Shown here in pieces: positions 40,441 to 43,509 of a stretch of 64,000 nt of DNA. Origin of the DNA: Anseongella ginsenosidimutans (GTDB lineage Bacteria > Bacteroidota > Bacteroidia > Sphingobacteriales > Sphingobacteriaceae); assembly GCF_008033235.1 (NCBI RefSeq), contig NZ_CP042432.1, positions 1,488,001 to 1,552,000 on the forward strand. Reading direction: 5' to 3'. Each line of letters starts with the position of its first letter. Positions within the stretch are counted from its first letter, which is position 1. The translations under genes and the position numbers were made by a program. The notes below the pieces were generated by a model. The model was not told the DNA's origin and searched no databases. It was given only the letters and a program-made list of their open reading frames with translations.

Positions 40441-41229
40441 TTATAATGTATTCACCGCTTTAATAAATTCCTCGCATGCTTTGCCGGGATCGGCTTCCTT
40501 CATAAACGTTTCCCCGATAAGGAAACCGCGGAAACCGGCTTCTTTCAGCTGCACAATAACGGCAGGCTGGCTGATAGCGCTTTCTGATATTTTAACGGCG
40601 GAAGCCGGAAGCAATTCCCCAAGGCGAAAAGATGTTTGCACATCGGTGCTGAAATCATTGAGGTTCCGGTTATTGATCCCTACAACGTCTACAAAATGAT
40701 TGATATGTCCGAGTTCCTGCTCATTGTGTACTTCCAGGAGTACTTCCAGCCCCAGCGAGCGGGCAAAGCGGGCAAGTTTTTCTGTTTCATGTACGCTCAG
40801 AATGGCAGCGATCAAAAGGATCACATCCGCCCCGATAGCCTTTGCTTCCAACAGCTGGTATTCATCAATGATGAAGTCCTTCCGGAGAATGGGAATTGTT
40901 ACCGCCGCGCGGGCTTTTTCAAGGTTTTCATTGCTGCCGCCGAAAAAGTCCACGTCCGTCAATACGGAGAGAGCGGAGGCGCCGGCCAGTTCATAAGCGG
41001 ATGCAGTGGCGATCACATCCGCATGCCCGTTTAAAAGGCCTTTGGATGGCGAGCGGCGCTTAAATTCAGCTATAATGCCCGAGGCGCCCCGGCGCGTCAG
41101 CGCTTTTTTGAAGGAAAGGGGGCTGCGTTTGAAATGCGAAGTGCTTTCAAGCCGGCTTACCGGCAGGCTCTTTTTATTTGCTTCTACTTCTTCTTTCTTA
41201 CGGGAAACGATCTTATCCAGAATGCTCAT
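40441..41229 (-). CDS. trpC: Indole-3-glycerol phosphate synthase
   Basis: 262 aa TIM-barrel enzyme for the fourth step of tryptophan synthesis. Conserved elements: IIAEFKRRSPSKG (catalytic Lys), ALSVLTDVDFFGGS, LRKDFIIDEYQLLEAKAIGADVILL and GINNRNLNDFSTD. Its ATG overlaps the trpG stop by 4 nt. It is monofunctional: no TrpF domain is fused. It is the last gene of the local operon. Confidence 0.95.
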   Translation of the reverse strand: MSILDKIVSRKKEEVEANKKSLPVSRLESTSHFKRSPLSFKKALTRRGASGIIAEFKRRSPSKGLLNGHADVIATASAYELAGASALSVLTDVDFFGGSNENLEKARAAVTIPILRKDFIIDEYQLLEAKAIGADVILLIAAILSVHETEKLARFARSLGLEVLLEVHNEQELGHINHFVDVVGINNRNLNDFSTDVQTSFRLGELLPASAVKISESAISQPAVIVQLKEAGFRGFLIGETFMKEADPGKACEEFIKAVNTL

Positions 41230-41804
41230 ATGCTCCTATTTAACCAGTTTTCCATGATCCTGTGCCCATGCGCCGTAAGGACCGATTCCGGGTGAAATTG
41301 CACGCCGCAGACATCGTACTCCCGGTGTCTTAATGCCATTACCGTGCCATCCGGGTCCTTCGCCGTGATCTTCAGGCAGGAAGGGAAATCCTTATCCGAA
41401 ACGGCCCAGGAATGATAACGCCCCGATTTGAACTTCTTCGGGACATCCCGGAAAAGAGGCTCGCTTTCGTCCAGCACTTCGGTTTCCACCGAAACCCCGT
41501 GAATCACTTTCGGAAGATTTACCAATGTGCCGCCGAAGACCTCCGCAATTGCCTGTTCGCCCAGGCATACGCCAAAGATAGGTTTAACGGACGCATACTC
41601 CCTGATAAGATCACATAAAATGCCCGATTCGGAAGGGATTCCCGGGCCGGGGGACAGAATGATGCGATCGTAGTCTTTCACTGCATCCAGGGTGATCTTA
41701 TCGTTCCGGTGTACCTCCAGCTCATAGCCCCCGATCTCGCGGACCAGGTGTACCAGGTTGTAGGTGAATGAATCGTAATTATCCAGTATAAGTATTTTTT
41801 CCAT
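41226..41804 (-). CDS. trpG: Anthranilate synthase component II (glutamine amidotransferase)
   Basis: 192 aa from the ATG at 41804, where MEKILILDNYDSFTYNLV, the family N-terminus, begins. Class I glutaminase: catalytic Cys in FGVCLGEQAIAEVFGG, His and Glu in VQFHPESVLT, and LSPGPGIPSE for the oxyanion loop. It supplies ammonia to TrpE. It lies 13 nt after trpE and overlaps trpC. It could also serve p-aminobenzoate synthesis, as in some bacteria. Confidence 0.95.
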   Translation of the reverse strand: MEKILILDNYDSFTYNLVHLVREIGGYELEVHRNDKITLDAVKDYDRIILSPGPGIPSESGILCDLIREYASVKPIFGVCLGEQAIAEVFGGTLVNLPKVIHGVSVETEVLDESEPLFRDVPKKFKSGRYHSWAVSDKDFPSCLKITAKDPDGTVMALRHREYDVCGVQFHPESVLTAHGHRIMENWLNRSI

Positions 41805-41817
41805 ATATCTCCGGGGA

Positions 41818-43232
41818 CTAAATATCTCCCGCCATTTCAATTGCTTTTTTTAAGGCAGCCAGCTTATTGCTCACCTCCTGTAACTCGTTTTCATGTACCG
41901 AGTCCGCCACGAAACCAAAGCCTGCCTGGAAATGCAGCACATTTTGCTTGCTCAGGAAAGACCGGATCATGATCGCATGGTTAAAATCTCCGTTGAAACC
42001 CATAAAGCCGATGGCTCCTGCGTAGAAACTCCGAGATCCTTTTTCATGCTCGTCAATAAGCTGCATAGCCCGGTACTTGGGGGCTCCGGAGAGTGTCCCC
42101 GCGGGAAAAGTCTTAGCCACTATTTTCATGGTGGGACCTCGTCCCGGAGTTTGCCTGACACCGTCGAAACCAGGTGGATCACATGGGAGTAATATTGCAC
42201 CTCGCGGAATTTCTCCACCTGCACCTTATCGCAGTGTATGCTCAGATCGTTGCGGGCAAGGTCAACCAGCATCACGTGTTCGGCATTCTCCTTGGGGTCT
42301 TCCATGAGCTTTTCGGCCAGGATCGCATCGGCCTCGTCGTCTCCGCTGCGCCGGAAGGTTCCCGCGATGGGATAGATGGTGGCTACCCGGTTCTTTACCG
42401 TAAGCTGCGCTTCGGGCGATGAGCCGAATAATTTGAAATTGCCATAATCAAAGTAAAAGAGGTAGGGTGAAGGGTTTACCGACCGCAGCGCCCGGTAAAC
42501 ATTGAACTCATCCCCCCGGAATGCCTGGCTAAAGCTCCTGGACGGAACGATCTGGAAAACGTCTCCCCGCCCTATATGGGCTTTTAGCTTGTCCATGATG
42601 TCCAGTAATTCGGCATCCGTCATGTTGGATGATTCTTCTCCTTCCGTCCGGAAATGGTATTCAGGGATATTCTTATTCCTGATCAGCAATTCAATCCGCT
42701 CAATGCCTCCCGGTTTTTCTTCCGTTCCTTCCGCATGATGCTCAAAAATATGCAGCTCGTTCCTGAAGTGATTGATGGCGATAACATAGCGATATACATG
42801 GTACTGCATTTCAGGAATGGCCCGTTCAGGCCGTTTGGGTGTGCTGAGCCGGATATCCTCGAAGTACTGTACCGTATCATAGGTGAAATAGCCGAATAAA
42901 CCGCCCGTGCTGAAATTGAATTTTTTGTCTGTTTCGTAGCGGAAGGCATTTCCGAAATCGCTGATCTTTTGGGGAATATCAATTTCATCGCATTGATAAG
43001 CATGGCTAATGCCATCGGGAAACTGTTCCCGGAACATTCCATCCTCGATCCTGATATGCGCAATAGGGTCGCAGCAGATAAAGGACATGCTGTTCCCGCG
43101 TGCGTGGTAGTCCGAACTTTCCAGGAGAATACTATTGGGGAATTCATCCCGGAGCCGCAGGTAAATACTTACGGGCGTAGCCGTATCGGCTAGCAAGGTT
43201 TTGTGTGTGGAACGAAGTGAGTATTGAGCCAT
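41818..43232 (-). CDS. trpE: Anthranilate synthase component I, frameshifted in this sequence
   Basis: About 471 aa when repaired; makes anthranilate from chorismate. The N-terminal region has ILLESSDY with the LLES motif known to bind feedback tryptophan. The chorismate-binding domain follows (QIVPSRSFSQAF, SPSPYLFYFDYG-like segment, IAGTFRRSGDDEAD, ELVARN-type MLVDLARNDL). The first frame ends at 42126 after KLRDEVPP and the second resumes with MKIVAKTFPAGTLSGAPK, the family's signature. One G added to the GGG at 42133-42135 gives DEVPTMKIVAKTFPAG. The defect is probably a sequence error. A leader-peptide attenuator precedes the gene. Confidence 0.93.
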
Positions 43233-43298
43233 TGGTCTGTTATTGTTGCTTGAATCGTTTTCTTTAGCCTGAACCAGGAGAAATTTTCCTCCCGAAGC

Positions 43299-43331
43299 AA
43301 AAAAGCCCGTCGCTTATCACGACAGGCTTTT
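43299..43331 (-). terminator. trp attenuator terminator
   Basis: A 12-bp stem AAAAGCCTGTCG/CGACGGGCTTTT (one T-G wobble), loop TGATAAG, and six T at the 3' side, placed 67 nt before trpE with no gene upstream on this strand other than the leader ORF. Its 5' arm is exactly complementary over 9 nt to CAGGCTTTT at 43374-43382 inside the leader ORF, the likely antiterminator partner. Confidence 0.85.
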
Positions 43332-43362
43332 ATATAAATATTTCTTTTTTTCTTTTGAAAGG

Positions 43363-43509
43363 TTAATCCACACAAAAGCCTGCAGCATGTTTTGTTTCAT
43401 GCCACCGCCAACCTGTATGTATCGTCTGATAAACCACTGGCCCAAAGATGGGAAAGAAAACTTTTAATTCAAAACGCCCGGTAGAAAATTTTCTCGCCGC
43501 AAGTAACAT
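43363..43509 (-). CDS. trpL: Tryptophan operon leader peptide, 48 aa
   Basis: A 48-codon ORF between 43509 (ATG) and 43363 (TAA) whose product holds FFPIFGPVVYQTIHTGWRW at residues 18-36; Trp34 and Trp36 are encoded by TGG at 43410-43408 and 43404-43402. It ends 32 nt before the terminator stem. A ribosome stalled at the Trp codons would leave CAGGCTTTT (43382-43374) free to pair with the terminator 5' arm; one reaching the stop would cover it, so the terminator forms. That is classic attenuation. The peptide is much longer than E. coli TrpL (14 aa). The start codon lies in the loop of a GTAAC/GTTAC hairpin nested in CTCGC/GCGAG and CGCCCGG/CCGGGCG stems (43470-43545). A Bacteroidota motif called Bacteroid-trp has been described; identity with it is not tested here. 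Confidence 0.78.
   Translation of the reverse strand: MLLAARKFSTGRFELKVFFPIFGPVVYQTIHTGWRWHETKHAAGFCVD

Follow-up and report, generated by a model that had tools for sequence, protein, structure and literature searches.

Leader region and alternative pairings upstream of trpE

The window, by which we mean the whole 64,000-nucleotide stretch of Anseongella ginsenosidimutans DNA analysed here, carries a trpE-trpG-trpC cluster on its minus strand. An initial annotation had described, ahead of trpE, a 48-codon frame with TGG-CGG-TGG, as well as CAGGCTTTT and its complement within a strong terminator. All of these elements were found in the sequence as claimed, and the features of the region are as follows.

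40441-41229 (-): trpC
41226-41840 (-): trpG, open reading frame with its start codon as given in the ORF list
41818-43232 (-): trpE, in two frames (42126-43232 and 41818-42129)
43299-43331 (-): intrinsic terminator, AAAAGCCTGTCG from 43331 and CGACGGGCTTTTTT to 43299, found by folding
43323-43331 (-): AAAAGCCTG, antiterminator 3' strand and also terminator 5' arm
43363-43365 (-): leader stop codon
43369-43419 (-): 1:2 hairpin in the fold of 43438-43360, its 5' half holding the Trp codons and its 3' half CAGGCTTTT
43374-43382 (-): CAGGCTTTT, antiterminator 5' strand
43402-43410 (-): regulatory codons TGG CGG TGG (Trp-Arg-Trp), the Trp codons at 43410 and 43404
43363-43437 (-): most likely leader peptide, 24 codons from GTG, VVYQTIHTGWRWHETKHAAGFCVD (residue 1 read as Met), in gap-free alignment with the ATG-started leader of the sister species
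43438 (-): predicted transcription start, placed from the box position of -12 to -5 given in PMC9723704
43443-43450 (-): CATCTTTG, candidate -7 box, matching 5/6 of TAnnTTTG
43470-43474 (-): TTTTG, candidate -33 element, located 19 nt upstream of the candidate -7 box
43363-43509 (-): 48-codon open reading frame MLLAARKFSTGRFELKVFFPIFGPVVYQTIHTGWRWHETKHAAGFCVD from the ORF listing, open upstream of trpE

The stretch 43438-43360 folds at -23.8 kcal/mol, and 2/200 shuffles were as good. Because a simple terminator scan missed the structure at 43331-43299 and listed only its inner hairpin, folding was used to evaluate the terminator; its energy is -19.7 kcal/mol (z -5.69), which was equalled by 0/200 shuffles. 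The antiterminator duplex formed by CAGGCTTTT and AAAAGCCTG is also strong, at -16.2 kcal/mol compared with -6.7 +/- 1.8 kcal/mol for shuffles (0/200 as good).

The switch was modelled by masking the ribosome footprint and computing the equilibrium probability of the terminator. For the window, this folding model gives the terminator a probability of 0.014 with the ribosome stalled at the first Trp codon and of 0.964 once it has reached the stop codon. Shuffling the free region in the stalled state gives 0.959. For the untranslated leader the outcome is ambiguous (0.581), with the antiterminator as the minimum-energy fold. The model agrees with the geometry originally proposed, in which stalling frees CAGGCTTTT and completion of the peptide hides it.

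Elsewhere in the window, group II intron domains (1513-1825 and 1964-2037, both on the minus strand) adjoin a tRNA gene.

Conservation of the leader and its pairing in relatives

We compared 130 trpE loci, made up of 30 from a search of 80 genomes (77 of which gave a match at E <= 0.001, TrpE paralogues counted in), 20 further stretches and 80 named loci that include Pedobacter, Mucilaginibacter, Sphingobacterium, Parapedobacter and Dyadobacter. After removal of 9 duplicates, 2 longer repeats and 5 loci in which no TrpE start was recognised, 114 non-redundant loci remained; they share kinship and do not represent independent events. A short open reading frame with a close pair of Trp codons, followed by an intrinsic terminator, was present upstream of trpE in 108/114 loci and in 0/342 dinucleotide shuffles. 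The exceptions are five loci lacking an ORF with a Trp pair (L016, L021 and L023, and likewise L046 and L123) and one leader without a terminator (L047). By eye, L016, L021 and L023, which belong to one genus (g3), have a single-Trp trpE leader and keep a terminator-like sequence. Run on real DNA, the leader detector fired at 5 of the 82 long ORFs that the window has on its two strands, antisense frames counted. Two of the five matches correspond to trpE and a frame within trpE, and the other three (9280, 33096, 15686, minus strand) were taken for chance.

The sister species, which belongs to the same genus and has a TrpE that is 88% identical, carries the leader MIYQVVHTGWWWRGKTRSTGFCME. It has the same CAGGCTTTTG/TAAAAGCCTG pair as the window, so that the pairing is kept, and its antiterminator duplex reaches -15.4 kcal/mol (0/200 shuffles as good). 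The first Trp group varies across the 108 leaders: 48 have WWW, 39 WW, 10 WQW, 6 WLW, 2 WRW, 2 WHW and 1 WCW. The two WRW leaders are those of the window and L048, and the sister has Trp-Trp-Trp. Interrupted Trp pairs (WQW, WLW, WRW, WHW and WCW) account for 21/108 leaders, the window included, and the Arg codon between the Trp codons of the window is ordinary variation. Absence of the ORF or of its pairing from relatives had been named at the outset as an observation that would refute the attenuator; the element is instead present in the sister and, with other sequences, in many relatives.

The modelled switch is less pronounced outside the window. Mean terminator probabilities for the 108 leaders were 0.849 for the stalled ribosome, 0.940 for a ribosome at the stop codon and 0.938 after shuffling, and the stalled value fell below 0.5 in only 10/108. 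In the sister, stalling lowers the probability from 0.965 only to 0.868. An antiterminator that excludes the terminator and is exposed only on stalling is seen in the window model and, by this measure, more weakly in most relatives. A switch whose outcome is settled while the RNA is still being transcribed may be underestimated by equilibrium folding; the sister stretch folds as the antiterminator when most of the terminator 3' arm has not yet been made.

Most relatives showed only a small equilibrium effect, so we also tested the antiterminator duplexes against shuffled and swapped partners. The antiterminator duplex was stronger than expected at p <= 0.05 in 54 of the 108 leaders and at p <= 0.01 in 27, and in 14 it was equalled by 0/200 shuffles. 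Real pairs averaged -10.5 kcal/mol compared with -8.5 kcal/mol for swapped pairs. A longest-helix score of >= 11 was reached by 31/108 real pairs versus 16.4% of swapped pairs, a modest excess. These 31 strong pairs comprise 19 distinct helices, and in 30/31 cases their upstream strand begins ahead of the point 16 nt past the stop codon. Complementary helices that differ in sequence include CGTCGGG:CCCGACG, GCATCGGG:CCCGATGC, GCGCCGG:CCGGCGT and CAGGCTTTTG:TAAAAGCCTG. Such helices, which change between groups yet stay complementary, provide the best evidence that the pairing matters.

Leader start and proposed attenuation mechanism

The -7 consensus of Bacteroidota is described as TAnnTTTG, located at -12 to -5, with TTTG near -33 (PMC9723704, PMC7366714). 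Placed in this way, the candidate box at 43450-43443 would set the transcription start at ~43438 and GTG 43437 at +2. The only in-frame ATG, GTG or TTG codons ahead of the Trp codons in the window are ATG 43509 and GTG 43437, and the latter aligns with an inner ATG of the sister. A 6/6 box lying 4-10 nt ahead of an in-frame start was found in 80/108 leaders versus 127/2160 shuffles (5.9%), and a 5/6 box, the level seen in the window, occurred at such spacing in 95/108 leaders versus 710/2160 shuffles (32.9%). Because a 5/6 box is present in 32.9% of shuffles, the argument for the window box rests on its relatives. Among the 107 leaders with a box that remain when L085, which has no start after its box, is omitted, the first in-frame start falls within 10 nt of the box in 95; in 4 of these 95 this start is a TTG that abuts the box, and an ATG follows a few bases downstream. 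The Dyadobacter leaders that were read have the box 26-32 nt from the start and are thus not near-leaderless, and the distance from box to start ranges from 4 to 30 nt in matches to the Rfam Bacteroid-trp model (RF01692) across the phylum.

These observations bear on the 48-codon leader of the initial annotation, whose start codon would lie in a nested hairpin. The same attenuator could be built on translation from ATG 43509 with a promoter further upstream, given that the frame is open from this codon in the window and that an in-frame ATG occupies the corresponding position in the sister. However, the promoter-like box falls inside the 48-codon ORF, most relatives with a box have their first in-frame start just after it, and most relatives have a short leader that begins at an ATG near the Trp codons. 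Compared with the sister, the extra 24 codons also lack a coding pattern (7, 9 and 8 differences at the three codon positions); since neither they nor the last 24 codons (8, 6 and 4) have a third-position excess, the codon-position comparison does not decide. On the basis of the box position and the start spacing in relatives, we set aside the 48-codon leader as improbable. GTG 43437, just past the box, is the better start, and the leader most likely comprises 24 codons (43437-43363) beginning at about +2 of the RNA. Because the box lies within them, the first 24 codons of the longer ORF are probably not translated.

Two further explanations concern the nature of the element itself. Its Trp-Arg-Trp codons, its GTG start and the trpE frameshift might together reflect an attenuator in decay under relaxed selection on the pathway in this species, an idea encouraged by the WWW, ATG and unbroken trpE frame of the sister. 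Relative to the sister, trpE in the window has lost one base at ~42135 (-), beside a C run, and is thereby broken into frames of 368 and 103 codons. A divergent amidohydrolase gene adjoining the leader is likewise split at ~44577 (+), where it is one base short of the sister, again beside a C run. Because both frameshifts adjoin C runs, assembly error is the likelier cause of the two, and the similar one-base loss in the neighbouring gene points to the same cause. Moreover, the window antiterminator is as strong as that of the sister (-16.2 and -15.4 kcal/mol), interrupted Trp pairs are common to other leaders, and trpD, trpF and trpB are present in the genome. Considering the duplex strength, the Trp pairs found elsewhere and the one-base loss in the neighbour, we judge decay very unlikely. 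The other explanation is a small-molecule riboswitch such as the trpB motif (RF04312), which aligns at 43293-43419 with 23.4 bits. This motif resembles the window element in having a hairpin, a possible antiterminator and a terminator and in sometimes preceding trp genes, and its authors leave open whether it is a riboswitch or an attenuator (PMC11109978). Its score nevertheless lies far below the gathering threshold of 59 bits (E 0.94), the motif is described there from other phyla, namely Firmicutes and Fusobacteria, and relatives of the window conserve the Trp-coding ORF but vary in the paired sequences. The riboswitch was rejected on its score, and we regard it as extremely improbable.

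We consider it highly probable that the element is a ribosome-mediated transcription attenuator of trpE-trpG-trpC, whose parts, conservation and mutually exclusive pairings are apparent from the sequence and its predicted folds. We infer the transcription start, the GTG start, the stalling and the response to tryptophan as follows. The RNA would begin at ~43438, with the ribosome initiating close to its 5' end, on GTG 43437. When charged tRNA-Trp is scarce, the ribosome would stall at the TGG codons (43410 and 43404) and open the 1:2 hairpin. The freed CAGGCTTTT could then pair with AAAAGCCTG, which would block the terminator and allow the operon to be transcribed. When tryptophan is plentiful, the ribosome would reach the stop codon at 43365-43363 and cover CAGGCTTTT, and the terminator at 43331-43299 would form. 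The mechanism itself is textbook, and the sequence supports it well.

Known trp leaders and the divided pathway

In the E. coli-type trp attenuator, Trp codons in a leader peptide are combined with alternative 1:2, 2:3 and 3:4 pairings and a terminator before the first gene. Set against this textbook model only, the window element has the same Trp codons, pairings and terminator placement. It differs in that its leader seems to start at about +2 and in that its antiterminator strand lies inside the leader ORF.

The Bacteroid-trp leader RNA (RF01692), listed in Table 1 of Weinberg et al. 2010 (PMC2864571), is similarly found in Bacteroidota and has a short leader peptide with Trp codons ahead of trp genes. 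Kinship with this RNA, as suggested in the initial annotation, is borne out. The Rfam alignment falls on the window leader and some members of the family pass the model, but the window itself scores 22.7 bits against a gathering threshold of 49. RF01692 had no match at E <= 0.001 in the whole genome, and none at gathering in 20 + 20 trpE loci and 18 trpD loci of relatives. Across the phylum, 13/148 genomes gave matches at E <= 0.001, of which 11 exceeded the cut-off; all 13 belong to one other family, and the leader is followed by a trpE-like gene in 11 of the 13 loci. A whole-genome search of the window's own family found 6/121 genomes over the cut-off. All five above-cut-off loci that were fetched have a Trp leader, which is followed in four by a trpD-like gene; in the fifth, L184, no gene was read after it. 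That locus (G015:C41) has its above-cut-off Trp leader on a contig apart from the trpE and trpD matches of the same genome. Many weaker matches in the family sit just upstream of trpD or trpE, such as G001:C2:47032-47176 (29 bits) at the trpE of the sister. We read the window element as a divergent relative of Bacteroid-trp that would work alike and fails the score test.

The pathway is divided in this genome, with trpD, trpF and trpB together at ~3.196-3.199 Mb and trpE-G-C distant from them at ~1.53 Mb. The trpD cluster has a leader of its own:

3196001-3196066: second Trp leader MQQVVIYKSWWRRFFFTRAPV, from ATG at 3196001, followed by a terminator and then by trpD at 3196173

In the model, this second switch is weak, with a terminator probability of 0.907 stalled and 0.995 at the stop codon. 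A run of ten T lies inside the peptide frame and might invite slippage. In a survey of trpD, which gave a match in 43/60 genomes, we read 20 loci from the window's family and 10 from other families (30 in all). A Trp leader and terminator preceded trpD in 18/20 loci of the window's family; no Trp leader was found before trpD in the 10 loci from other families or in 2/20 of the own-family loci.

Sinorhizobium meliloti offers a parallel for both the leader start and the division of the genes. Its trpL is described as leaderless, with transcription starting directly at the first codon of the peptide (PMC7298713), and the predicted RNA start of the window lies near its start codon; in both organisms, trpE and trpD belong to separate transcription units. 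The attenuated trpL RNA of S. meliloti is reported to act in trans on trpDC mRNA (PMC7298713), and, unlike the arrangement described there, the trpD cluster of the window genome has its own Trp leader and terminator.

Among the papers listed in searches of the open-licence PMC literature, none gave an account of a trp attenuator in Sphingobacteriaceae. Since leader-peptide attenuation before amino-acid operons is mentioned for Flavobacterium (PMC9723704), the idea of attenuation is not new for the phylum. The present analysis adds to the known range of a Bacteroidota leader RNA a family in which the Rfam model seldom reaches threshold, and it corrects the probable start of the leader. For the Sphingobacteriaceae, as represented by the named relatives, we see about an even chance that trpE-G-C and trpD-F-B are each governed by their own Trp attenuator, with leaders read from leaderless or nearly leaderless RNAs that the Rfam model mostly misses. 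Leader peptides on such RNAs would imply coupling to the ribosome from the first nucleotides, and the element offers a test system for attenuation on a nearly leaderless transcript. If the divided pathway does have two attenuators in parallel, they would illustrate how a single signal coordinates its two halves.
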